From a virus, in the IMG/VR virus record IMGVR_UViG_3300027719_000028, positions 1 to 47,968 of that record: a DNA stretch of 47,968 nt, one strand, 5' to 3'. Numbering within the stretch: the stretch's first letter is position 1; every line of letters starts with the position of its first letter. The notes below the pieces were generated by a model. That model saw nothing but the letters and a program-made list of their open reading frames with translations, was not told the origin of the DNA and searched no databases. Below are positions 5,090-47,968 of the stretch, in pieces. A program made the translations under genes and the position numbers.

Positions 5090-5695
5090 ATGGAAGAAAT
5101 TAAATTAACACAAGAACAGATTGATGCTTTAGTAGCTGAGAAGGTTGCAGAAGCCAAAAAAGGTTTGTTTACAGAGGATGAACTCAGTAAAAGAGTTAGT
5201 TCGGAAGTAGATAGACGAGTAGAGAGTGGAATCCAGAAAGGTCTGGAAACTTATAAAAGTAAATGGGAAACAGAGGCACAGGAAAGAGCAAGAATGTCGG
5301 CAGAAGAAATTGCTCATAAAGAATTTCAAGAAAAGATGGAAGGTCTTACTGCTAAAGAAAGAGAAATCCAGAAGAAAGAGAATTTGATATCTGCCAAGGA
5401 TATGCTTTCAAGTGCAAATGTCCCTAAAACGCATTACGATAAATTCATTGGTATGCTCGTTACTGATAACCCAGACACTACAACATCGAATGTTCAAAGC
5501 TTCATTGATATGTTCAATACAACAAAGTCTGAATTGGAAACAACTCTAAAGAGTCAGATGTCCAATATCAAGCCTCCCAACACTGGTGATGGTGACGATG
5601 TTGTAACATTGGAGAAATTCAAGAAGATGGGATATGCTGATAAACTTAAATTTAAGCAGACTAATCCCGAACTGTATACAAAGTTTATGAAATAG
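5090..5695 (+). CDS. Capsid scaffold protein (GP20-like)
   Basis: This is a 201-aa, highly charged, mainly helical protein with Glu/Lys-rich coiled-coil sequence at about residues 20-110 and a Lys-rich C-terminus (FKKMGYADKLKFKQTNP). Size, composition and position immediately before the major capsid gene fit the phage minor structural/scaffolding family, which templates procapsid assembly and then leaves. I chose the ATG at 5090 because AGGAGG (5078-5083) is 6 bases upstream; the in-frame ATG at 5084 touches the Shine-Dalgarno and the frame could extend to 5000. Confidence 0.82.
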   Translation: MEEIKLTQEQIDALVAEKVAEAKKGLFTEDELSKRVSSEVDRRVESGIQKGLETYKSKWETEAQERARMSAEEIAHKEFQEKMEGLTAKEREIQKKENLISAKDMLSSANVPKTHYDKFIGMLVTDNPDTTTSNVQSFIDMFNTTKSELETTLKSQMSNIKPPNTGDGDDVVTLEKFKKMGYADKLKFKQTNPELYTKFMK

Positions 5696-5717
5696 AGTAA
5701 AAGGAGATTGATAAATA

Positions 5718-6737
5718 ATGGCTGGAACAAATCTTAGTTTCCCTTATGATGCGGAAATATTTAATTATGATTGGAAAAATACCCCAGACGTAGTTCTTAC
5801 AAGTCTGTTAGACTCTGGTGCCATGGTACAAGATGGCGAAATCGCAAGAATGATAGGTAATGGTTCTAACTTCTTCACAGTACCATTCTATGATGTTCTT
5901 GGTGGAACAGAGGACGTTTACAATGGTGTTGCTAACTTTACTGGTGCTTCACTTACTGGTGGTAGCTATAGTGGTTGTGTATTCGGTAGAATGTCAAAAT
6001 GGACTGCTAAATCGTTCATAAAAGACTTCAACTCTGGTGCAGACCCAATGGCTCAGATAGTTGCTGGTGTTGCTGGTTTCTGGCATAAAGCTAGACAGAC
6101 AAGACTCATAGCTATCCTTGAAGCAGTATTTGGAATAACTGGTGATGCTGATTGGACTAAGCACATCACTGATATAACTACAACTGGTTCAACAACTGCT
6201 GATTCAAATAGAATTGGTGTTACTACTATCAATGATGCTTGCATCAAAGCTTGTGGTGATATGGCTACTGACTTTACACTTGCTATTATGCACTCAAATG
6301 TTGCTAATAGGCTTGCAAACCTCCAGCTTCTTGAGTACAGCAAGTACACTGACCCAGCTGGAATCACTAGAAACTTACCACTTGGTACTGTAAATGGTAA
6401 AATCGTCATCATAGATGATGGTGTTCCTGTTATCAGTTCACCACACGATACAGACGAGTTTGAGTACACAACTTATGTTCTTGGTCTTGGTGCTATCAGA
6501 TATGCTCCAGCCCCAGTTGACGTTCCTTCTGAAATGGACAGGAATCCAGATACTAATGGCGGACTTGATATGATATACACTAGAATCAGAGAATGTATCC
6601 ACCCTTATGGATTCTCATTCAAGGGCGATGTTACAACTGACGTTGGTGTACCAGATGCAGTCCTTACAGTTGCCGCTTCTTACGAAAGAAAGTTGCCAGC
6701 AAAGGCTATAAAGATGGTTAAAATCGTCACTAACTAA
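5718..6737 (+). CDS. Major capsid protein
   Basis: This 339-aa protein follows the scaffold gene and has an AAGGAG ribosome site. Features fit an HK97-fold coat protein of the Firmicutes siphophage type: a long central helix region (MAQIVAGVAGFWHKARQTRL), then AILEAVFGI, and a late beta segment with IRYAPAPVDVPSEMDR and IHPYGFSFKG. It forms the capsid shell. Codon choice is more GC-rich than the tail-tip genes, as expected for a highly expressed protein. Confidence 0.88.
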   Translation: MAGTNLSFPYDAEIFNYDWKNTPDVVLTSLLDSGAMVQDGEIARMIGNGSNFFTVPFYDVLGGTEDVYNGVANFTGASLTGGSYSGCVFGRMSKWTAKSFIKDFNSGADPMAQIVAGVAGFWHKARQTRLIAILEAVFGITGDADWTKHITDITTTGSTTADSNRIGVTTINDACIKACGDMATDFTLAIMHSNVANRLANLQLLEYSKYTDPAGITRNLPLGTVNGKIVIIDDGVPVISSPHDTDEFEYTTYVLGLGAIRYAPAPVDVPSEMDRNPDTNGGLDMIYTRIRECIHPYGFSFKGDVTTDVGVPDAVLTVAASYERKLPAKAIKMVKIVTN

Positions 6738-17938: not shown

Positions 17939-18385
17939 ACTTTCAAATTTTATAACCTTACTTTCAAAAAATAAAACCCCATCTACTTTCAAAAAATTCA
18001 ACCCCTTTCAAATTTTATAACCTTCATTGAAAATAAAGATTCAAATATATGTTAACATTTTATTAATTTTTACAAATCATGATTACATAATCTGACAATC
18101 TGAATAGTCTGAATATTCATATAAATTACAGGTTACAGGAAAATTACAGGAAGTTATCCACAGATGACCAAACCTGTAATCTCTGAAAGCCTTGATATGA
18201 CTCACTTTGTTATATATAAATTACTAATTACACCTTTTTCTTAATAAATAAAGTATTATAATAGTATAGAATAAGAGTAGAATAGCAAATTCCTGTAATC
18301 CCGTAATTCCTAGCACATGAATGGCTCAACCATGCGATTTGTTGGCATTACAACTTGATTTAATGGTTGTACGCAAAAGTAATTG
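17939..18385. other. Non-coding repeat-rich region, candidate replication origin
   Basis: This 447-base segment has no plausible gene. It holds ACTTTCAAA-type repeats (17939, 17960, 17985 and 18005), a 19-base repeat TTTCAAATTTTATAACCTT (17941-17959 and 18006-18024), TCTGA(A/C)-type repeats at 18091-18120, five copies of TTACAGG (18126, 18133 and 18144 direct; 18173 and 18292 inverted), a perfect DnaA box TTATCCACA (18154-18162), TTGATATGACT at 18192-18202, and a very AT-rich stretch to 18290. Iterons, a DnaA box and an AT-rich stretch are typical of an origin; this is inference. Confidence 0.55.
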
Positions 18386-18414
18386 TTGACTTTGGTTGCT
18401 GGATATGATATAAT
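18386..18414 (+). promoter_or_regulatory. Promoter of the sigma-like gene
   Basis: TTGACT, 17-base spacer, TATAAT. It opens the early/middle region directly after the repeat-rich segment. Confidence 0.85.
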
Positions 18415-18448: not shown

Positions 18449-19015
18449 ATGAGTACCATTAAAACATCAGCAGAAGAAATTGTATCCACAGTATGCAACA
18501 TACTTAGTGGGTGTGACCAACCTTATATTGAACGCACAAAGTTAACACCAGAACAAAGTCAGCTAGTGGCAGATAATCATAATCTCATATATTGGTATCT
18601 TAATATGCGACATCTTAATGAAGCCGATTGGTATGATATGCTGGCAATAGAATTATGTCAAGCAGTTATGTTCTACAATCCAGAGAAGGGTGCTATATCA
18701 ACTATATTCAAGCAGAGGGCTGACTGGATGATAAACAGAGAATGGACTAAGAGTAAGACCCAAAAGAGGGATTGTGTTAGTGTAAGGTTCACTGAGGGAG
18801 TCCATGACTCTGAATGTCCCACTAATGTAGAGGAGTTTATGGCAATCAAGGATTGGATTGATTCAGATGATACTGGAATATTACAACTAAAGTCAGAAGG
18901 ATTCAAGAACAAGGAAATAGCTAAAATGCTGGGAATCACACCAAATACAGTATATAGAATATTGAAGAAGAAAAAGGAGGAATTTACCCTTGACAGAAGA
19001 ATGGAAACCTATTAA
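18449..19015 (+). CDS. Sigma-70-like RNA polymerase factor
   Basis: A 188-aa protein with AAAGGAGG before its ATG. The N-terminal ~110 residues resemble region 2 of small sigma factors (NLIYWYLNMRHLNEADWYDM, then FYNPEKGAISTIFKQRADWM). The C-terminus has a region-4 helix-turn-helix (LKSEGFKNKEIAKMLGITPN, TVYRILKKKK). It is the first gene after the candidate origin and could redirect host polymerase to late promoters. The late region has few consensus -35 boxes, which fits that idea. Confidence 0.72.
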   Translation: MSTIKTSAEEIVSTVCNILSGCDQPYIERTKLTPEQSQLVADNHNLIYWYLNMRHLNEADWYDMLAIELCQAVMFYNPEKGAISTIFKQRADWMINREWTKSKTQKRDCVSVRFTEGVHDSECPTNVEEFMAIKDWIDSDDTGILQLKSEGFKNKEIAKMLGITPNTVYRILKKKKEEFTLDRRMETY

Positions 19016-26023: not shown

Positions 26024-26100
26024 GGCTCATTAGTGTAGTGGTTTCTGTACACTTGACTGTCTATCAAGTAGCGAGGGTTCAATTCCCTCATGAGTCGCCA
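26024..26100 (+). tRNA. tRNA-Asp (GTC)
   Basis: Acceptor GGCTCAT/ATGAGTC (one GU), discriminator G, encoded CCA. Anticodon arm CTTGA-CTGTCTA-TCAAG gives anticodon GTC. T-arm GAGGG-TTCAATT-CCCTC. Confidence 0.95.
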
Positions 26101-26104
26101 ATAG

Positions 26105-26142
26105 TAGGTTGTCACCATAAACTTCCAATAGTAAGAATGGTG
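26105..26142 (+). repeat. Spacer hairpin repeat, copy 1
   Basis: GGTTGTCACCATAAACTT (26107-26124) with a stem CACCAT/ATGGTG closing at 26142. The same 18-base unit recurs at 26495 with one change, and the stem is kept through a GU pair. Confidence 0.5.
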
Positions 26143-26175
26143 GGGTTTACGCACGAACCTTATCGTGTGCTACAT

Positions 26176-26248
26176 GGTGAGAGTAGTCCTCTGACGAGAG
26201 CAGTAATGATATTGGATAATGGGAGTTCAATCCTCCCCTCTCCCATCA
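26176..26248 (+). pseudogene. tRNA-like element, probably defective
   Basis: It follows the same TACAT spacer as its neighbours. It has a normal T-arm (GGGAG-TTCAATC-CTCCC) and an acceptor GG(T)GAGAG/CTCTCCC that pairs fully only if a T is bulged out; the 3' end is ATCA, not ACCA. The D and anticodon arms are irregular (CTCT-GACG-AGAG; CAGTA..TATTG with a short loop). A GAT (Ile) anticodon is conceivable but unsupported. Confidence 0.4.
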
Positions 26249-26253
26249 TACAT

Positions 26254-26329
26254 GGACAGTTAACTCAATTGGCAGAGTGTCGGTGTGAAGTACCGAAAGT
26301 TGCAAGTTCGACCCTTGCATTGTCCACCA
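26254..26329 (+). tRNA. tRNA-Phe (GAA)
   Basis: Acceptor GGACAGT/ATTGTCC, discriminator A, encoded CCA. Anticodon arm TCGGT-GTGAAGT-ACCGA gives GAA. T-arm GCAAG-TTCGACC-CTTGC. Confidence 0.95.
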
Positions 26330-26334
26330 TACAT

Positions 26335-26409
26335 AGGAGATTCGTCAAGTGGTTAAGACACTAGATTGCAAACCTAGTTTCAAGAGTTCAAATCTCTTAT
26401 CTCCTTCCA
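26335..26409 (+). tRNA. tRNA-Cys (GCA)
   Basis: Acceptor AGGAGAT/ATCTCCT, discriminator T (the Cys identity base), CCA. Anticodon arm CTAGA-TTGCAAA-CCTAG gives GCA, with an A-C mismatch next to the loop. T-arm AAGAG-TTCAAAT-CTCTT. Confidence 0.92.
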
Positions 26410-26413
26410 ATAT

Positions 26414-26488
26414 GGTGTTGTGGCTCAATGGTAGAGCAAGTCACTTGTAATGACTAGGTTGTCAGTTCGATTCTGACCTTCACCTCCA
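26414..26488 (+). tRNA. tRNA-Thr (TGT)
   Basis: Anticodon arm AGTCA-CTTGTAA-TGACT gives TGT. T-arm GTCAG-TTCGATT-CTGAC. Acceptor GGTGTTG/CTTCACC has two adjacent T-T mismatches at positions 5-6, which may weaken it. Discriminator T, CCA encoded. Confidence 0.85.
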
Positions 26489-26494
26489 TGCGTT

Positions 26495-26528
26495 GGGTTG
26501 TCACCGTAAACTTTTGAGGGAATGGTGA
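26495..26528 (+). repeat. Spacer hairpin repeat, copy 2
   Basis: GGTTGTCACCGTAAACTT with stem TCACCGT/ATGGTGA (one GU) between tRNA-Thr and tRNA-Lys; second copy of the element at 26105. Confidence 0.5.
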
Positions 26529-26534
26529 GTATAC

Positions 26535-26611
26535 AGGAGTATAGCATAGCTGGATAATGCACTTGGCTTTTAACCGATAGACCAAGAGTTCAAATCTATT
26601 TACTCCTACCA
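26535..26611 (+). tRNA. tRNA-Lys (TTT)
   Basis: Acceptor AGGAGTA/TACTCCT, discriminator A, CCA. Anticodon loop CTTTTAA in stem TTGG/CCGA gives TTT. T-arm AAGAG-TTCAAAT-CTATT has one mismatch. Confidence 0.9.
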
Positions 26612-26615
26612 ATAA

Positions 26616-26693
26616 TGTTGAGTAGACAAACTGGTAAAGTCACCAGCCTTTGAAGCTGGGGTTATGTAGGTTCAAAGCCTACCTCAACAACCA
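26616..26693 (+). tRNA. tRNA-Gln (TTG)
   Basis: Acceptor TGTTGAG/CTCAACA, discriminator A, CCA. Anticodon arm CCAGC-CTTTGAA-GCTGG gives TTG. T-arm GTAGG-TTCAAAG-CCTAC. Confidence 0.95.
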
Positions 26694-26700
26694 AGTGGGT

Positions 26701-26828
26701 CTTGCCATTATCTATGTGAATGAGCAAGTAAAGAAACTGACACAAAAGAGTCCTTGATGAAAACTAGTGAGTAGTCTTGGAAGTATATGTCACCTATTCA
26801 GTTTGATTGCTATTTGGGATGCGTCCCA
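26701..26828 (+). ncRNA. Candidate structured RNA between tRNA-Gln and tRNA-Trp
   Basis: Three pairings can be drawn in this 167-base spacer: CTTGCCATT with AATGAGCAAG (26701-26728, one bulged A), AAACTGA (26734-26740) with TCAGTTT (26798-26804), and TGGGA-TGCG-TCCCA (26815-26828). No gene or tRNA fits. It could be a processed spacer, a small RNA, or a highly decayed tRNA pair. Confidence 0.4.
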
Positions 26829-26860
26829 GCACCTTTCGATGGGTTGAATATACACAATAT

Positions 26861-26934
26861 GAGGGCTTAGTTTAGTGGTAAAATGGTGGACTCCAAATCC
26901 ACACACAGAGGTTCGATTCCTTTAGCCTTTGCCA
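26861..26934 (+). tRNA. tRNA-Trp (CCA)
   Basis: Acceptor GAGGGCT/AGCCTTT (two GU), discriminator G, CCA. Anticodon arm GTGGA-CTCCAAA-TCCAC gives CCA, reading UGG only. T-arm AGAGG-TTCGATT-CCTTT. Confidence 0.95.
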
Positions 26935-27112: not shown

Positions 27113-27613
27113 ATGAATGTGACAGAGGTATGGAAAGATGTAATTGGTTATGAAGGTGATTATAAAGTTAGTAACTTTGGAGTAGTTAAAAGTTTAAAGT
27201 ATGGTAAAGAGCGAATATTACAACCAATTGAAGACAAAGATTGATATTTATATATTACTTTAATGAAACAAAACATAAAACAAACCAAACGTATTCACCG
27301 ATTAGTGGTTGAAACATTTATTTCAAATATTCCAAAGAATAAGGTAATTAATCATATTAATTCTAATCGTAAAGATAACAGTTTATATAATTTAGAAATA
27401 ATTACACAATATGAGAATGTAATACACTCAATACAACATGGTTCGTTTGGTTGTAAATGTAGTATTACAAATAAGCATACAGATGAACAATTATTTTTTA
27501 AACAACAAACAGAGTTATCTAAGTATTTTGGGTTTTCCAAAAATTGGTGCGTTACTCGAAAAAAACGATACGGCAATATATTTGAATATGGGGAGTGGAT
27601 TATATCATGTTAA
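27113..27613 (+). pseudogene. HNH homing endonuclease interrupted by an in-frame TGA
   Basis: One frame runs 167 codons from ATG 27113 with a single TGA at 27242-27244 (codon 44). Upstream is NUMOD4-like (TEVWKDVIGYEGDYKVSNFG); downstream is the HNH core (RIHRLVVETFI, VINHINSNRKDNSLYNLE) and a C-terminal DNA-binding part. Relatives usually read DGYLxxTL where this has D-stop-YLYITL, so a GGA to TGA change explains it. The downstream 116-aa part could start at ATG 27263 but lacks a ribosome site. The end overlaps the polymerase start. Confidence 0.8.
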
Positions 27614-29390: not shown

Positions 29391-31316
29391 ATGAACCTTT
29401 TTAAAGGATATATTCCAAGTAAAGGTAAAATGCCCTTGTCTAGTGTTAAGACAGGGGAAATCCTCTCCGAGCCACCAACAACAGGAGATTATGTTGGGGT
29501 TTTGAGAGAGGATATAATACAACTTGACTTTGATGATGAGGGTAGTGCTAGAATCGTTTTAGATATAGTGGCATCATATAAATTGCGTTGTGATATATTG
29601 AAAACTGGCAGAGGAGTCCATCTGTATTTCATGGATGATGGTTGGATTAAGTCCCAGAGTGTAGGAGTTTTCAATGCCATAGGCTTATCTTGTGATATTG
29701 GATTGGGTATAAAGAATAGAGTTATACCTTTGAAAATAACCAGAGATAGAGAGGATGTAAGGATTGTCGATGGAGAGGAAATGGTAAGTGTTACCAAAGA
29801 AACTGTACTCAGAGAATGGCTACAGACTTATCCAGAACTCGATGTATTACCAGCTTTCCTAAGACCTATTGGTAAAACTGATTATGACCTTAAAAAATGC
29901 AATTCCAGAAATCAGACATTATTCAATTATATCTTGACATTACAATCACACAATTTCACCAAGGACGATATAAGGCGAACAATAAAGATAATCAATAAGT
30001 ATGTACTTTATGAACCATTGGACGATAAAGAGATAGATACCATAACGAGGGATGAGGCTTTTTCAGAGGAGTTATTCTACACAGATAAGGGTTCATTCAT
30101 GCACGATAGATTTGGTAATTATATGTTGACAAATTGCAATATACTCATGATAGATAACCAGCCACACATATATACCAAAGACCATCTGTATTCCAATGAC
30201 CCAAATGAGTTTGAGAAAATAATGCTTGACAAAATCCCAAGTTTGAAGGATGCCCAGCGAAAGGAAGTTTACAAGTATATTGGCTTGAAATGTGCGTTAA
30301 GAGGTGAGTTCGCAAATCCAAGATACGTTGGTTTAAAGAACACTATATTGGACATAGAAACAGGAGAGGAATTTCCATATTCTCCTAAATGGATAATCAA
30401 TAACAGGATTGACCATGACTACAATCCAGATGCCTACCATGAACAGATGGATAAAACACTTGATAAGGTGTGCTGTTATGATAAGCAGATAAGGATATTG
30501 TTGGAGGAAATTATTGGATATACTCTGTATCGTAAAAATTCAATGCAAGTATGTTTTATACTAACAGGAGAGGGTAGTAATGGAAAGTCAACGATTCTCA
30601 ATTGCATTAAAAGATTGCTTGGAAAACAAAACTATACTTCTTTGGACTTGCGAGAACTTGAAGAAACTTTCAAGCCAGCAGAGTTGTACAACAAACTGGC
30701 TAACATCGGTGATGATATATCTGCCAAATACTTGGAAAATTCTTCCGTATTCAAAAAAGTGGTTACTGGAGAATCTTTTATGGTGCAACGAAAATACGCA
30801 CAACCCTTTGAGTTGGAATGTTATGCCACACAGATATTTTGTGCCAATGAACTTCCACAAGTGCATGATAAGTCTGATGGATTCACACGAAGAATAGTCA
30901 TACTTCCGTTCAATGCCAAGTTTACAAAGCTGGATGCTGACTATGACCCATTTGTAGAAGACAAATTGATGGCAGATGAAGCTATGCAGTATATGTTAAA
31001 GTTGGCAATAGAGGGTCTTAAAAGAGTCATATACAACAGACAATTCACTAAATCTGATAAGGGTGAAGGTGAAAAAGCTGACTATATGAAACTCAATAAC
31101 AACATCCTTGAATGGTTTGAAAGTGAACCTTCAATAGAGAACGAAAGTGTAAATGACGTATACCTTGCATATCAAGTTTGGTGTACTCAGAATGGCTGTA
31201 TGCCAGTTAAAAAGCTTAATTTTAGCAAGGAAATCAAGAAGGAGTTTGGATTAACCTCTAAACCTAAGACGATACAAGGAAAGTCGGTGAGAATTTATGC
31301 TAAAGATATTGACTAA
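29391..31316 (+). CDS. Primase-helicase (PrimPol N-terminus, D5/P4-type SF3 helicase)
   Basis: A 641-aa protein. The N-terminal domain has PrimPol acidic and His motifs (IIQLDFDDEG near 46, GRGVHLYF near 77). A D5_N-like linker leads to an SF3 helicase with Walker A GEGSNGKST at about 393-401, Walker B-like IGDDISAKYL and TQIFCANELPQVHDKSDG. The C-terminal ~60 residues (VNDVYLAYQVWCTQNGCMPV) are a winged-helix domain, repeated as a separate protein at 41937. It unwinds the fork and makes primers for the family B polymerase. Confidence 0.9.
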   Translation: MNLFKGYIPSKGKMPLSSVKTGEILSEPPTTGDYVGVLREDIIQLDFDDEGSARIVLDIVASYKLRCDILKTGRGVHLYFMDDGWIKSQSVGVFNAIGLSCDIGLGIKNRVIPLKITRDREDVRIVDGEEMVSVTKETVLREWLQTYPELDVLPAFLRPIGKTDYDLKKCNSRNQTLFNYILTLQSHNFTKDDIRRTIKIINKYVLYEPLDDKEIDTITRDEAFSEELFYTDKGSFMHDRFGNYMLTNCNILMIDNQPHIYTKDHLYSNDPNEFEKIMLDKIPSLKDAQRKEVYKYIGLKCALRGEFANPRYVGLKNTILDIETGEEFPYSPKWIINNRIDHDYNPDAYHEQMDKTLDKVCCYDKQIRILLEEIIGYTLYRKNSMQVCFILTGEGSNGKSTILNCIKRLLGKQNYTSLDLRELEETFKPAELYNKLANIGDDISAKYLENSSVFKKVVTGESFMVQRKYAQPFELECYATQIFCANELPQVHDKSDGFTRRIVILPFNAKFTKLDADYDPFVEDKLMADEAMQYMLKLAIEGLKRVIYNRQFTKSDKGEGEKADYMKLNNNILEWFESEPSIENESVNDVYLAYQVWCTQNGCMPVKKLNFSKEIKKEFGLTSKPKTIQGKSVRIYAKDID

Positions 31317-31818
31317 ACCATTATTTGGATATGAGTCAGAATATAATATATGTGAAGATGGAACTATAATTAAAATCAATCCTTGGAGATTACAAGAGGG
31401 TGGAATTGTAAAAGCTAATATTTGTGAAAAGGGATATGTATATGTAAACTTATTTAAAAATGGTAAACATAAAAGACATAGATTGCATAGATTAATGGCA
31501 CAAACCTTCATACCTAACCCAAATAACTTACCAGAGGTCAACCATAAGGATGAAATTAAAACAAATAATAAGATTGATAATTTAGAATGGTGTGATAGAA
31601 AATACAATAATAATTATGGTACAAGAACTAAACGAGCAACTACACATTGTATTGGAAATAATTATAATAGAAAAGTTTCAATAGAAGATGATGTTCCCAA
31701 ATTTATACAATTATATGATAGTGGATTAAACTATTCAGATATTGGACATATAATGGGTTTTAGTAGAAGAACTGTATCAAATTATATTAAGAAATATGTT
31801 GGGGAGGATGAAGTATGA
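31297..31818 (+). CDS. HNH homing endonuclease with C-terminal HTH
   Basis: A 173-aa protein with an HNH core (RHRLHRLMAQTFI, VNHKDEIKTNNKIDNLEWCD) and a C-terminal helix-turn-helix (DSGLNYSDIGHIMGFSRRTV). Its ATG lies inside the primase 3' end (20-base overlap) and its stop overlaps the next start by 4 bases. The HNH core is close to that of the 18990 protein. Confidence 0.88.
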   Translation: MLKILTKPLFGYESEYNICEDGTIIKINPWRLQEGGIVKANICEKGYVYVNLFKNGKHKRHRLHRLMAQTFIPNPNNLPEVNHKDEIKTNNKIDNLEWCDRKYNNNYGTRTKRATTHCIGNNYNRKVSIEDDVPKFIQLYDSGLNYSDIGHIMGFSRRTVSNYIKKYVGEDEV

Positions 31819-33500: not shown

Positions 33501-35270
33501 ATGGAAAAACAATTATTGGATGCAAAGAAGTTAGTTGAAGATTACTTATTCGACAAAGATTGGAGAACCAAGGAAAACTCAAACGCACCCAGAAGTTTTG
33601 GGTCGTTAAATAAATATATAATAGGTGAGGTTTCCAAGAACTACTGGTTGAATGAAGTATATCCTAAGAGAATAAAACGAGCATATTTAGATGGTGAAAT
33701 GCACATCCATGATTTAGGGGCGTTGACACTATATTGTGTTGGGTATTCACTTGAAACAATTCTATTAATGGGAGTTGTTGGAGTAAGTAATATACCAGTA
33801 TCAAGTCCAGCTAAGCATTTTAAGAGTGCGTTATCACAAGTAGTTAATTTAGCTACAGTATACCAAAACGAACAAGCTGGAGCAGTTGCGTTCAATTCAG
33901 TTGATACGTTGCTTGCACCATTTATAGCTTATGATTCCCTTTCCAAAGAGGATGTTAAACAGGAATTACAGAATTTTATATTTGCATTAAACAGTAATTC
34001 TAGGATGGGGGCAGAGCCAGCATTTACAAATATAACACTAGACATAACACCATCCCCAGATATGCTGGACAAGAAGATAATAATAGGTGGTAAATATAAA
34101 CCAGAAGTATATGGTGACTTCCAAAAGGAGATGGATTTATTCAACGAATGTTTCACTGAGATAATGTTAGAGGGTGATGCCAAAGGTCAACCATTCTCAT
34201 ATCCAGTATTAACCTATAATATAGGTAAGAGGTTTGATTGGAATAATCCCAAGAATGACAAAATATTTGAAATGGCTGGTAAATTTGGATATCCGTATTT
34301 TTCAAACTTTGTAAATTCAGATATGGATGAAAGTGATATACGTTCCATGTGTTGTAGATTGAGGTTAGACCTTACTGAATTACGAAAACGTAATGGAGGA
34401 TTGTTTGGTGCTGGTGATTCTACTGGAAGTATTGGAGTAGTAACCATTAATATGCCAAGAATTGGATATGTGTCCAAAAGTGAAAAGGAGTTTTTCAAGA
34501 GATTAGATTTAGTATTGGAGTTAGCTAAAGAAAGTCTTGAATTAAAACGAACCTTCTTAAATGATATGATATTAGGTGGTGAACTATTACCAGCTTATAT
34601 GAAATATGTAAGTACCATTGATAATCATTTTAGTACGATAGGTATAATTGGGTTCAATGAAATGTGTGAAAACTTCTTAGGTAAGGATATACTGTCACAA
34701 GAAGGTAGGGATTTTTCAATAAAAGTCGGTAATTATATTCTGGATAAGATAAAGGATTTCCAAGTAGAAACTGGTCATTTATATAATTATGAAGCCTCTC
34801 CCAGTGAGTCCACTTGTTATAGACTTGCTAAGAAGGATAAAGAATTATTCCCAGATATAATAACACAGGGTAAAACAGTCCCATATTATACAAACTCATG
34901 TCACATTCCAGTGTCTAAAGTAACTACTATAAATGATATGATAGCACACCAAGAACCGTTACAGACTCAGTTTACTGGGGGATGTGTAAATCACATTTAT
35001 TTAGATGGTGCAATATCTGGAGAACAAGCTAAACATATTGTTAAAACTTGTTTAACTAAGTATAGAAATCCATATATAAGTCTATCACCAGTAAATAGAT
35101 ATTGTCCAGAACATGGATATATTGAGGATAGAGTTGAGATTTGTCCTAAGTGTGGTGAGAAGTTGGATATCATGCAACGTATAACTGGTTATTTAAGAAA
35201 AGTAGATAACTTTAATGCTGGTAAAAAGGAAGAGTTTTATGAGAGAAAACAGTTTACTGGTGAAGATTAA
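33501..35270 (+). CDS. nrdD: Anaerobic (class III) ribonucleoside-triphosphate reductase
   Basis: A 589-aa enzyme converting NTPs to dNTPs with a glycyl radical. Seen are the N-terminal barrel (INMPRIGYVSKSEKEF), PYYTNSCHIPVSK, the GGCVNHIYL segment, a C-terminal zinc site (RYCPEHGYIEDRVEICPKCG) and RITGYL carrying the radical glycine. Oxygen destroys this radical, so the host is anaerobic when infected. The ATG at 33501 follows GAAAGGAAG. An HNH gene separates it from nrdG. Confidence 0.93.
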   Translation: MEKQLLDAKKLVEDYLFDKDWRTKENSNAPRSFGSLNKYIIGEVSKNYWLNEVYPKRIKRAYLDGEMHIHDLGALTLYCVGYSLETILLMGVVGVSNIPVSSPAKHFKSALSQVVNLATVYQNEQAGAVAFNSVDTLLAPFIAYDSLSKEDVKQELQNFIFALNSNSRMGAEPAFTNITLDITPSPDMLDKKIIIGGKYKPEVYGDFQKEMDLFNECFTEIMLEGDAKGQPFSYPVLTYNIGKRFDWNNPKNDKIFEMAGKFGYPYFSNFVNSDMDESDIRSMCCRLRLDLTELRKRNGGLFGAGDSTGSIGVVTINMPRIGYVSKSEKEFFKRLDLVLELAKESLELKRTFLNDMILGGELLPAYMKYVSTIDNHFSTIGIIGFNEMCENFLGKDILSQEGRDFSIKVGNYILDKIKDFQVETGHLYNYEASPSESTCYRLAKKDKELFPDIITQGKTVPYYTNSCHIPVSKVTTINDMIAHQEPLQTQFTGGCVNHIYLDGAISGEQAKHIVKTCLTKYRNPYISLSPVNRYCPEHGYIEDRVEICPKCGEKLDIMQRITGYLRKVDNFNAGKKEEFYERKQFTGED

Positions 35271-35638
35271 TGTATGGGGAATGGATTAAAGGTTATGAAA
35301 ATAAATACTCTATCACTACTGATGGTAGAGTATTTGCTCATGATTATCATAGACAAGGTATAATAATGGAAATGAAATGTAAACTATCTAATCGTGGATA
35401 TACTAGAGTTGGATTAAGAAAAGATGGTGGTAAACAACAATTTTATAGTGTTCACAGATTAGTAGCTGAAACGTATATTGAAAATCCATTAAACTATGAC
35501 CAAGTAAATCATATTGATGGTAATAAAAACAATAATAATGTGTCTAATCTGGAGTGGTGTAATCATAGTCAAAATGTAAAACACGCATATAAAACAGGGT
35601 TGATGACACCTTGGAATAAAAAGTTGGAGGTTGTATAA
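35270..35638 (+). CDS. HNH homing endonuclease between nrdD and nrdG
   Basis: A 122-aa protein with NUMOD4-like start (YGEWIKGYENKYSITTDGRV) and HNH core (FYSVHRLVAETYI, VNHIDGNKNNNNVSNLEWCN). Its start overlaps the nrdD stop and its stop overlaps the nrdG start by one base each. The endonuclease sits in the operon without breaking either gene. Confidence 0.88.
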   Translation: MYGEWIKGYENKYSITTDGRVFAHDYHRQGIIMEMKCKLSNRGYTRVGLRKDGGKQQFYSVHRLVAETYIENPLNYDQVNHIDGNKNNNNVSNLEWCNHSQNVKHAYKTGLMTPWNKKLEVV

Positions 35639-41611: not shown

Positions 41612-41784
41612 TGGACTGGATTATGAAATGGAAATGGGTAATAATGTTAGGAGCATGTGTATTAGCAAACCTCGGTACGTTGGTTCTGGGGCTTGCAAAT
41701 ATTTGGACTATCATAGCATTACTGATGTGTGCATATACTCTTAGAATTGAGATAAGGACGATTAAAGCCAATGACGAAGTTTAG
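41611..41784 (+). CDS. Small membrane protein
   Basis: A 57-aa protein with a long hydrophobic region (VIMLGACVLANLGTLVLGLA and IWTIIALLMCAYTL). Starts on the previous stop and overlaps the next gene by 14 bases. Confidence 0.6.
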   Translation: MDWIMKWKWVIMLGACVLANLGTLVLGLANIWTIIALLMCAYTLRIEIRTIKANDEV

Positions 41785-41944
41785 TAAGGTGTTAAGTATA
41801 GTAAATATGTGTCTAGTTGCTCTGGTATTCATGTCAGCAATAGCTACAGGGTCATATATAGAACCATATTGGTTACTAGTGCTGTTCCTGTATCAGTGGA
41901 CAGATTATCAATGTGATAAGATGAGGGATGAGATAGATGGCTAG
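41771..41944 (+). CDS. Small membrane protein
   Basis: A 57-aa protein with two hydrophobic stretches (IVNMCLVALVFMSAIA and YWLLVLFLYQW). Overlaps neighbours by 14 and 8 bases. Function unknown. Confidence 0.6.
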   Translation: MTKFSKVLSIVNMCLVALVFMSAIATGSYIEPYWLLVLFLYQWTDYQCDKMRDEIDG

Positions 41945-42272
41945 ATACACTTATAGAGATATATATGGAAAGGCTAGATTAGGGCATGGAGTTACACTAC
42001 AAGAGGCTACAGATGCTCTTTGCGAGTTAGAGGAAAAGTTAAATAAAGAAGTATATAAGACAAATTCAGTTAATTACTGGCTTGCTAAAATGCCCAAAAT
42101 AAGTGGTAGAATTGTAAATGATGTTTATGTTGAGTACAGGACATATTGTTATGAAACAGGAAAGCGAGCAGTAAATAAGATAGAGTTTTCCAGACAACTT
42201 GTAAAATTTGGATATCATTCTAAGGTTGTAAATATTGGTGGTAAGAGTTTTAGGGAATATTATCTCAAATAA
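41937..42272 (+). CDS. Standalone primase-C-terminal-like (D5 winged-helix) protein
   Basis: A 111-aa protein. Its second half (VNDVYVEYRTYCYETGKRAV, then FSRQLVKFGYHSKVVNIGGK) matches the last ~60 residues of the primase-helicase at 29391 (VNDVYLAYQVWCTQNGCMPV, FSKEIKKEFG, GKSVRIY). No helicase motifs are present. That domain is a DNA-binding winged helix in D5-type primases. The gene directly precedes a repeat-rich non-coding region. An origin- or operator-binding role is inferred. Confidence 0.7.
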   Translation: MARYTYRDIYGKARLGHGVTLQEATDALCELEEKLNKEVYKTNSVNYWLAKMPKISGRIVNDVYVEYRTYCYETGKRAVNKIEFSRQLVKFGYHSKVVNIGGKSFREYYLK

Positions 42273-42613
42273 ATTACAGCTTTTTTGATAAAATTACAAG
42301 AAATTACAAGTAGACTGTCATTCCCCTTAAACCTAGTCATATCAATGGTTTGAGGGGATAATTCTTCTACAGATGTTGAAAACAATGTGTAACCTTCTGT
42401 AACCCTTGATATGACTGGTGTTAGACTATGTTAATTACTAATATTCTTTATTATTTATAAAAATAGAATAGTAAAATAGTAGTAGTATATAAGAGAGTAG
42501 GGGAAAAAGTGAGTAATTAGTAATTTAAGGCTGTGAAGCAAGTCATATCAACATGTTAGGGACATTACAGCTTTTTATCGGGTTGTACGTTAGTTGTAAC
42601 TTGTAATTTAATA
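42273..42613. other. Non-coding region with exact repeats and a large hairpin
   Basis: No gene fits these 341 bases. They hold TTGATATGACT at 42406-42416 and its complement at 42335-42345 and 42541-42551, an 11-bp hairpin (42323-42357), AAATTACA(A/G) repeats, and an AT-rich stretch (42430-42500). The overall order resembles 18.12-18.30 kb, before the sigma-like gene. Confidence 0.55.
42323..42357. other. 11-bp hairpin with TTGATATGACT complement in the loop
   Basis: CCCCTTAAACC (42323-42333) pairs with GGTTTGAGGGG (42347-42357), one GU. The 13-base loop is TAGTCATATCAAT, containing the repeat AGTCATATCAA. Confidence 0.75.
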
Positions 42614-42642
42614 TTGACTTCTAATTGTAAATCTGTTATAAT
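42614..42642 (+). promoter_or_regulatory. Promoter of the small terminase gene
   Basis: TTGACT, 17-base spacer, TATAAT, extended TGT. Confidence 0.88.
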
Positions 42643-42667: not shown

Positions 42668-43195
42668 ATGCCTAGAACATATAAAAAGAAAGGTGTTCAT
42701 ACAAGCCCAGAAACGGCTGGTAAGCAGAACTTGGATGGGGTAGATTTACCTAAAGATGAAAGTGGATTGATGGCTAAGATTATGCCTGTTTACAAACATG
42801 GTAATGATAATAGAGGAATATATAAAGGACTTTGGACAGAGGATGCGTTGCGTGAGGAGATTGCAAAATTCTTCGATTATTGTGCAGAGGTTGAGTTGAA
42901 GCCTACAGTCCCAGCACTTCAATTGTGGTTGGATATAAATCGTTCCACATTATGGGAATGGCGAACAAAGCCCGAACGTCATGGGGTGAAATCCGACATT
43001 ATCGAACAGGCTTACAGGATTATGGAAATGTATCTTCAAAGTAACATCGACAAATATCCAACAGGCTCAATATTCCTACTCAAAACTACACATGGTCATG
43101 TTGAAACCAGCAAACTGGACATCACATCAGATGGCAAAGCAATATCAGACGTTGCAGATGTCAAGGACAGACTTTCACAACTTGGATTGGAGTAA
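42668..43195 (+). CDS. terS: Terminase small subunit
   Basis: A 175-aa protein. It has a helical N-terminal DNA-binding part (FFDYCAEVELKPTVPALQLW and LDINRSTLWEWRTK, a helix-turn-helix) and the family C-terminal pattern TGSIFLLKTTHGHVETSKLD, comparable to AGAIFNLKNNFGWKDK of other TerS proteins. It selects the packaging site for TerL. It is about 4.1 kb before terL, unusually far, with small genes between. Confidence 0.82.
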   Translation: MPRTYKKKGVHTSPETAGKQNLDGVDLPKDESGLMAKIMPVYKHGNDNRGIYKGLWTEDALREEIAKFFDYCAEVELKPTVPALQLWLDINRSTLWEWRTKPERHGVKSDIIEQAYRIMEMYLQSNIDKYPTGSIFLLKTTHGHVETSKLDITSDGKAISDVADVKDRLSQLGLE

Positions 43196-46541: not shown

Positions 46542-46783
46542 TGGATATAAGAAATGTTTTCATATTGTTTAATGAAAGTGAATTTACAAAAGATGGTATA
46601 ATCAAGGAGTTGAAAGAGGAAGGTTATCAGCATAACTTTATCTTTGGATTTAAGCTTACACAGAGTAACCTCGGTGATTATCTTAGGAAATGTGATGAAT
46701 TGTGGTGTTTTGGGGATTGTTCCCACATGAACGCATATAAAGTTGCTACTGAATTTGGGATAGATGTCTGGAATATGGGATAG
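46541..46783 (+). CDS. DUF4406/DUF1937-like small protein
   Basis: An 80-aa protein, MDIRNVFILFNESEFTKDGI, with KCDELWCFGDCSHMNAYKVA and EFGIDVWNMG. This Rossmann-like pattern (hydrophobic strand, DELW.FG, then an ExxxA-type helix) is that of nucleoside 2-deoxyribosyltransferase relatives. The catalytic role is uncertain. Overlaps the preceding stop. Confidence 0.55.
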   Translation: MDIRNVFILFNESEFTKDGIIKELKEEGYQHNFIFGFKLTQSNLGDYLRKCDELWCFGDCSHMNAYKVATEFGIDVWNMG

Positions 46784-46793
46784 AGGTGATTTA

Positions 46794-47342
46794 ATGTGGA
46801 CATTATATATTCATATATCACCTAGTAATAAATATTATGTAGGAATTACTAGTAGAACAACCTATGAACGATGGGGTAAAAATGGGATGCGATATAGAAA
46901 ACAACTTAAATTTTGGAGAGCAATACAAAAATATGGATGGAATAATTTTAAACATATTGTAGTTTCTAATAATCTCCCTAAGTGGTATGTATTAGAACTT
47001 GAGAAATATTTTATAGAATTATTAAAGTCAAATACCAAGTATGGTGGATATAATATATCAAGTGGTGGTGAACATCCTACACTTGGATTAACGTACTCAA
47101 GTGAAACTAGATTGAAAATATCAAATGCTAATAAAGGTAGAAGTATTAATAAAGGTGTTTTGAATGGGATGTATGGTACTTTACCAACTACGGTAAGGCG
47201 AGTAAAATGTGTTGATACTGGTGAAATTTTTGAAAGTATAAAATCAGCATCAAAAACTATTGGTAGACATCCATCTACTTTATCTGATGGTATAAAAAAA
47301 GGGTTTAAATGTGCTGGAATGAGGTGGGAATATGTTGAATAG
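46794..47342 (+). CDS. GIY-YIG homing endonuclease
   Basis: A 182-aa protein. GIY-YIG core at the N-terminus (LYIHISPSNKYYVGITSRTT, YIH/YVG as GIY/YIG), then RAIQKYGWNNF, ELEKYFIELL with the catalytic Glu, followed by NUMOD3 (SSETRLKISNANKG) and NUMOD1 (FESIKSASKTIG) DNA-binding modules. ATG 46794 after GAGGTG. It overlaps the terL start by 11 bases. Confidence 0.9.
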   Translation: MWTLYIHISPSNKYYVGITSRTTYERWGKNGMRYRKQLKFWRAIQKYGWNNFKHIVVSNNLPKWYVLELEKYFIELLKSNTKYGGYNISSGGEHPTLGLTYSSETRLKISNANKGRSINKGVLNGMYGTLPTTVRRVKCVDTGEIFESIKSASKTIGRHPSTLSDGIKKGFKCAGMRWEYVE

Positions 47343-47968
47343 CGATGGGTTAAGCATACAAGAAGTTGAACACTATGTTGATGTAATTATTCCTAAACTT
47401 GAAACTGAACTTTCAAGAAAAGACTTAGGTGATACAGAGGTTGTTGATTTATACAACCTCTACGTTGACATATTGAAGCTTGTAGCACCCCATAACTTTC
47501 ATTGTTACAATAAGTATCTTGAACTGGATGATGACCACAACTCACCAAACAAGGCTTTCTATCATCATAGGAAGAATCACATGTGGGACATGTTTGAGTC
47601 ATTTAACAGGATGGAGATATATGATGACTATGACCTATTGCTGATATCCATGCCACCTCGTTGTGGTAAGACCACTACTGGAATACGATTTCTTTCTTGG
47701 ATAATCGGTAGACATCCAGAGAGTACAGAACTTGCAACATCATACTCAGACTCAATCACCACATCGTTCTATATTGGTGTAATGGAGATTGTAGAAGGTC
47801 AGAGATTTAAAGAGGTATTCCCAGATGCTCCATTGGTTAATCAAAATGCCAAGAGAGAAGAAATATGGCTCAAGATTAAAAAGAGATATCCTTCTATCAC
47901 CTTCGTTCCTATCGGTGGTTCTATGACTGGTCGATGTGAAGCTGGTAAGTATCTCTATTGTGATGACT
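47332..47968 (+). CDS. terL: Terminase large subunit, N-terminal part (continues at 8)
   Basis: Residues 1-212 of the packaging ATPase. Walker A is MPPRCGKTT at about 107-115. GAGGTGG lies 5 bases before the ATG, within the GIY-YIG gene. The frame passes the circle junction and ends at 1057, about 520 aa in all. Confidence 0.93.
   Translation, partial: MLNSDGLSIQEVEHYVDVIIPKLETELSRKDLGDTEVVDLYNLYVDILKLVAPHNFHCYNKYLELDDDHNSPNKAFYHHRKNHMWDMFESFNRMEIYDDYDLLLISMPPRCGKTTTGIRFLSWIIGRHPESTELATSYSDSITTSFYIGVMEIVEGQRFKEVFPDAPLVNQNAKREEIWLKIKKRYPSITFVPIGGSMTGRCEAGKYLYCDD
47843..47968. repeat. Terminal direct repeat, right copy
   Basis: Identical to bases 6-131. The correct reading through the join is the one present here. 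Confidence 0.9.

Follow-up and report, generated by a model that had tools for sequence, protein, structure and literature searches.

The locus raises the question of why a phage that encodes a P4-family primase-helicase should also carry the C-terminal winged helix of that enzyme as a separate small protein beside a region of short repeats, and what that protein might do there. The window, i.e. the whole stretch of DNA analysed, comprises 47,968 nt. Its ends overlap by ~130 nt and the large terminase gene crosses the ends of the record (47322–47968 + 1–1057); the record is thus circular and probably complete. The 641-aa primase has its nearest relative among sequenced phages in Paenibacillus phage LincolnB (43%). 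The small protein, of 111 aa, is encoded by the last gene of the early operon, 5′ of the gene for the terminase small subunit (terS). Coordinates are collected in Table 1.

Table 1. Features of the window discussed in the text.
Feature	Position	Strand	Remarks
Origin-like module, region 1	18070–18385		Similar to region 2; start of early operon
Box AGTCATATCAAGGCTT	18187–18202	−	Region 1; one mismatch
Promoter-like TTGACT-17-TATAAT	18386–18414	+	11/12 consensus; before early operon
Helix-turn-helix protein	18449–19015		Another candidate regulator
P4-family primase-helicase, 641 aa	29391–31316	+	TIGR01613, DUF5906, D5_N
Primase-helicase C-terminal winged helix	31077–31313	+
Small gene preceding the 111-aa ORF	41771–41944		End overlapped by start of the 111-aa ORF
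Free-standing winged-helix protein, 111 aa	41937–42272	+	ATG start
Origin-like module, region 2	42273–42612		TTACA/TGTAA iterons flanking an AT-rich core
Box AGTCATATCAATGGTT	42335–42350	+	Region 2
Second box, inverted (AGTCATATCAAGGGTT)	42401–42416	−	Region 2
AT-rich core	42425–42500		83% A+T; possible unwinding element
Third box AGTCATATCAA	42541–42551	+	Region 2
Promoter-like TTGACT-17-TATAAT	42614–42642	+	11/12 consensus; before terS; TGTAA in spacer
terS	42668–43195	+

The 111-aa protein comprises a lineage-specific helical N-terminus (residues 1–41) and a winged helix (residues 42–111). In a BLASTP comparison with the 641-aa primase, 27 of 67 positions are identical to primase residues 570–636 (40%, E = 2e-13). 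The first-pass annotation had recognized the relationship from three motifs and had noted that the small protein has no helicase. Two of the motifs, VNDVYxxYxxxC and IxGKS, are indeed exactly common to the two proteins; the third, FSxxhxxxF, is present in both, with one residue fewer in the 111-aa protein (FSRQLVKF compared with FSKEIKKEF). An independent profile, PHROG 864 (DNA primase), matches residues 44–104 with E = 2.4e-6. Searches of Pfam and NCBIfam returned no significant match; Pox_D5 (PF03288) does not match the 111-aa protein, and the primase itself lies just below the cut-off for that family (20.0 against 21.4). Profile searches found neither an AAA+ helicase with Walker motifs nor a primase domain in the 111-aa protein, which is not a primase-helicase of the TIGR01613 family. 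Besides the primase and the 111-aa protein, none of the ORFs of the window contains the domain. The N-terminal 45 residues have no PHROG match and no significant match in phage genomes, and these searches thus lend no support to a resemblance to a common small protein of phages.

Both domains were modelled with AlphaFold2, and they are predicted to share the same winged-helix fold. The models each contain three helices and a two-stranded wing in identical order, with pLDDT values of 88 for the 111-aa protein (87–98 from residue 41, and about 95–98 in residues 51–110) and 78 for the primase C-terminus. The first 40 residues of the 111-aa protein are predicted with lower confidence as two helices (pLDDT about 64–87) and are not conserved. 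The best structural match of both domains is the DNA-binding domain of RFX bound to the X-box (1dp7; Z = 8.0 and rmsd = 2.1 for the 111-aa protein, Z = 7.9 and rmsd = 2.3 for the primase domain), with RFX5 (8zjr) also at or near the top for both, and the origin-binding domain of phage P4 (1ka8) gives Z = 6.3 for both. These Z values are modest, and the same matches lead for the two models. At the sequence level a profile built from the domain detects the C-terminal part of SaPI5 Rep (7ola, E = 4e-4) and, weakly, RFX5 (E = 1e-3). The resemblance of such a tail domain to those of P4 and RFX had been pointed out before in another viral helicase (PMC10516667). The half-site of the RFX X-box, GTTACC, is similar to the GTTACA iteron described below (PMC2375033), a likeness that is suggestive only, and RFX differs in being a eukaryotic transcription factor family.

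By homology and predicted fold, the 111-aa protein belongs to the P4/D5-type origin-binding winged helix family. Its closest known counterparts are the C-terminal winged helices of P4 gp-alpha (1ka8), SaPI5 Rep (7ola) and SCCmec Cch2, the likeness resting on the profile for SaPI5 and on the predicted fold for P4. The C-terminal domains of SaPI Rep and SCCmec Cch2 bind iterons located directly downstream of the gene (PMC7581432), and in the P4 family the origin-binding domains are likewise encoded beside iterons that flank an AT-rich core. In contrast to the P4-family primase-helicases, the domain is here a separate 111-aa protein lacking primase and helicase. Homology gives good support for DNA binding by the 111-aa protein.

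A sister lineage, represented by the records G001 (52.6 kb) and G005 (21 kb) with near-identical copies in other contigs, encodes primases 79% identical to that of the window. Its counterpart of the free protein has 109 aa from a GTG start and shares 42% identity across 71 codons. The gene order is that of the window: small early genes, the free copy, ~370 nt of intergenic DNA and terS. The start region of the gene is similar in the two phages, and the N-terminal 40 residues are not conserved. Judged by this counterpart in the same gene order in another lineage, and by a dN of 0.51 against a dS of 1.83 (near saturation), the 111-aa ORF is not a chance ORF. The rates indicate that the free copy is under purifying selection, constrained far less than the domain of the primase itself, for which dN is 0.14 and dS 1.55. 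The free copy evolves much faster, with 42% identity between the two phages compared with 81% for the primase domain, and the adjoining terS is strongly diverged as well (48%). In a tree the two free copies form a clade of their own (support 96/93), and the copy therefore predates the split of these phages; a copy of the primase winged helix it is, as first proposed, but an old and separately evolving one. The recognition helix of the free copy differs between the lineages while the iterons remain similar, so the free copy could have a different DNA target.

Free copies are rare. A search of IMG/VR with the single 111-aa protein gave no match, and with the alignment of the pair only the sister lineage was found; a DNA pattern scan, too loose and returning mostly chance matches, revealed no free copy besides that of the sister phage (L193). 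The profile E-value of the window protein is not counted as evidence, as the protein is itself in the profile. Among 37 further records with related primases, other free copies occur only in L073 and a fusion in L080; the function is therefore dispensable in most relatives. In the unrelated phage L073 (15272–16870) three ORFs for free winged helices, one of them carrying the domain twice in tandem, surround a 510-nt iteron-rich and AT-rich stretch shortly 5′ of terS. This iteron region also contains ATCAATGTGTCA inverted repeats. The same winged helix forms the C-terminus of a Bro-N protein (L080:1–690), where it passes the Pfam cut-off for RFX, and of a Rha protein (L117:432–1154).

The gene does adjoin a repeat region, as the first-pass annotation stated. 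TTACA/TGTAA occurs eight times in 42273–42613 (1.4 expected) and nine times in 17939–18385 (1.8 expected), and regions 2 and 1 are the two densest sites in the genome for these pentamers (10 and 9 per 400 nt, where the genome averages 1.6). In both regions short repeats surround cores of 83% AT, as in iteron origins of the SaPI/P4 type. Regions 1 and 2 can be aligned, as can region 2 and the DNA that follows the primase gene in the relative L025, in both cases beyond all 300 shuffles, which attests similarity but not function; the 29 nt around the region 2 box (AAACCTAGTCATATCAATGGTTTGAGGGG) match a site in that L025 DNA at 25 of 29 positions. The two densest sites of the sister phage lie at corresponding places. 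Detrended cumulative GC skew turns at 18714 (minimum) and 42901 (maximum), near both regions, but these turns equally mark the border between early and late genes. From their repeats and AT-rich cores regions 1 and 2 are putative replication origins, and the proposal that a free DNA-binding domain adjoins an origin gains support both from the common predicted fold and from the match of the adjacent region to the primase-linked module of relatives. A region 1 type module is also present at the start of the early operon in a relative of 67% identity (L174, about 5650–6100), and the TTACA cluster at 3004 in L013 is of the same type. A further cluster at 19760 in L111 was rejected as an origin, since it resembles coding sequence and has no AT-rich core. 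To the left of region 1, at 17939–18030, there are (T)ACTTTCAAA(A) repeats, distinct from the iterons and also found in the sister phage.

In relatives the module, consisting of iterons, AT-rich core and a AGTNATATCAANGGTT box, is located 40–600 nt downstream of the primase gene. Directly 3′ of the primase, many phages of the family have an AT-rich core surrounded by TTACAG/GTTACA repeats of either orientation, at densities of up to 16 in 450 nt where fewer than two are expected, and GTTACA is the commonest repeated hexamer with at least two G/C downstream of primases but not upstream. With up to one mismatch AGTNATATCAANGGTT gives 46 matches in relatives, compared with 4.8 in shuffled sequence, and 21 of the 46 lie within 1.2 kb downstream of a primase; the motif was seen first in relatives and then searched for, so that part of the 46 matches defined it. 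The elements proposed here (GTTACA iterons, AT core and AGTNATATCAANGGTT box) would apply to a large family of phages of Gram-positive bacteria, in which replication origins seem to be unannotated.

In the clade of the window no such iteron cluster is present downstream of the primase. Measured from the end of the primase gene, one module lies 11 kb downstream and the other 13 kb upstream, and neither is directly 3′ of the initiator gene. An HNH gene (31297–31818) overlaps the stop codon of the primase gene. It is missing in the sister phage, which also has no origin at that place, and its insertion was therefore rejected as the cause of the separation. Region 2 begins at the stop codon of the 111-aa gene with a + strand box 63 nt further on, so that the 111-aa gene takes the place, relative to the module, that the 3′ end of the primase gene has in relatives.

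This position suggests a reading in which the 3′ end of a primase gene was carried along with the origin in an acquired primase–origin–terS segment and has no important role now. The unconserved N-terminus and the divergence of the adjoining terS fit such a history. However, the gene is intact in two lineages, with the dN and dS values, conserved start region and clade support given above, and the separate occurrence of three ORFs in L073, including the tandem repeat of the domain, suggests selection. A mere by-product of recombination is consequently improbable. The distance between origin and primase gene also invites the idea that the free protein is pre-bound at the detached origin and recruits the primase-helicase through protein contact, with L073 offering a second example of a putative origin that is far from the primase gene and next to free domains. 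Yet the primase retains its own conserved DNA-binding domain, and most relatives have no free copy, including two (L091 and L145) in which the origin is shifted from the primase; we consider a loading platform of this kind very unlikely.

Each module abuts a strong promoter, and for region 2 this is the promoter of terS. The main alternative, possible but rather unlikely, is that the primase winged helix has become a regulator of late transcription, an early-to-late switch that activates or represses terS and the early promoters through the iterons. The 111-aa gene is the last of the early operon and lies directly 5′ of the terS promoter, the position occupied by late regulators of the ArpU/RinA type, and TGTAA repeats are found within the spacer of that promoter and just upstream of it. 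Two relatives (L091 and L145) encode between origin and terS a protein labelled ArpU-like from its sequence and position, rather than by a profile search, and the window has no such gene there. The domain is moreover fused to regulatory domains in the Bro-N and Rha proteins described above. Against this, activation seems needless for a terS promoter that is near consensus as it stands (that of the sister phage is weaker, judged by eye), and the iterons, which have matches at the origins of relatives without a free copy, are explained by the primase alone. The helix-turn-helix protein offers another candidate for a regulator. The ArpU/RinA profiles in Pfam, PHROGs and NCBIfam do not match the 111-aa protein, which belongs to a different family.

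The reading we prefer, to which we would give an even chance, is that of a helicase-less origin-binding protein that modulates or competes with the primase-helicase and may affect both promoters. The free protein would be the origin-binding winged helix of a P4/SaPI5-type primase-helicase, produced from the last gene of the early operon. It would bind the GTTACA/TTACAG-type iterons of the adjacent region 2, and probably those at 18070–18385 too. Lacking the AAA+ helicase it would occupy the origin sites without opening them, and after expression of the early genes would compete or mix with the full primase-helicase on the iterons; the same binding could also adjust transcription of the early operon and of terS. 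These steps differ in strength, and the reading has points against it: the fast divergence of the free copy and its changed recognition helix could point to a different DNA target, and most relatives do without such a copy. Binding to the iterons is likely, given the properties of the isolated Cch2 C-terminus and the biochemistry of the P4 origin-binding domain. Since sites would be occupied but left unopened by a protein with no AAA+ motor, a modulator of initiation is the most likely role, although whether initiation is in fact affected we would call evenly poised. Since the primase retains its own intact domain (81% identical between the two phages), recruitment seems less probable than competition or modulation. 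That the effect is negative, restraining initiation, is put forward tentatively, with the balance slightly against it. Because each module abuts a strong promoter, promoter activity may be adjusted too, and control of terS is possible because the consensus promoter abuts the right-hand iterons; an effect on the two promoters is more doubtful than restraint of initiation.

There is precedent for a partial initiator acting at its own origin. RepR′ of plasmid pIGRK, a short variant of the initiator, is an antagonist or helper at the same origin and operator (PMC6854812), and antagonism by the phage protein is proposed by analogy with it. RepR′ arises at an internal start site of the initiator gene itself, whereas the phage copy is a separate and diverged gene far from the primase. 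In P4, Cnr (DUF5375) is likewise a small phage protein, controlling the copy number of the gp-alpha replicon, and P4, too, has its iterons in two separate places (crr and ori1); Cnr differs in that it adjoins the primase gene. Homology of the 111-aa protein to Cnr was rejected, there being no alignment and no Pfam match. Initiator domains can also be turned against other replicons: the ICP1 nuclease Odn borrows the origin-binding domain of a satellite (PMC8263062). By extension the free domain might block the iteron origin of a parasite or competitor with a related primase, and its fast evolution would fit an arms race. But the 111-aa protein has no nuclease domain, its gene is located in the early operon at the phage's own origin rather than in a defence locus, and that origin would be blocked too; a role as an anti-satellite weapon is extremely improbable.

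The small gene is best described as encoding a free paralogue of the initiator's origin-binding domain, next to one copy of a duplicated origin-like module that is linked to a promoter at both places. Little is known of how phages with self-loading helicases of the P4/SaPI type limit initiation and move to packaging; here a helicase-less paralogue adjoins a putative origin fused with the promoter of terS, and one small gene with two short stretches of DNA would suffice to test the question. In its most extended and unlikely form, the preferred reading makes the domain a free switch that accumulates with early expression, occupies the two duplicated iteron origins that form part of the early and the late promoter, shuts off initiation and early transcription and sets late transcription. 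If so, one domain in two proteins would time both replication and packaging.

The window also contains four genes resembling homing endonucleases, three HNH and one GIY-YIG (27263–27613, 31297–31818, 35270–35638 and 46764–47342), and seven tRNA genes located together at 26024–26934, specifying Asp, Phe, Cys, Thr, Lys, Gln and Trp.
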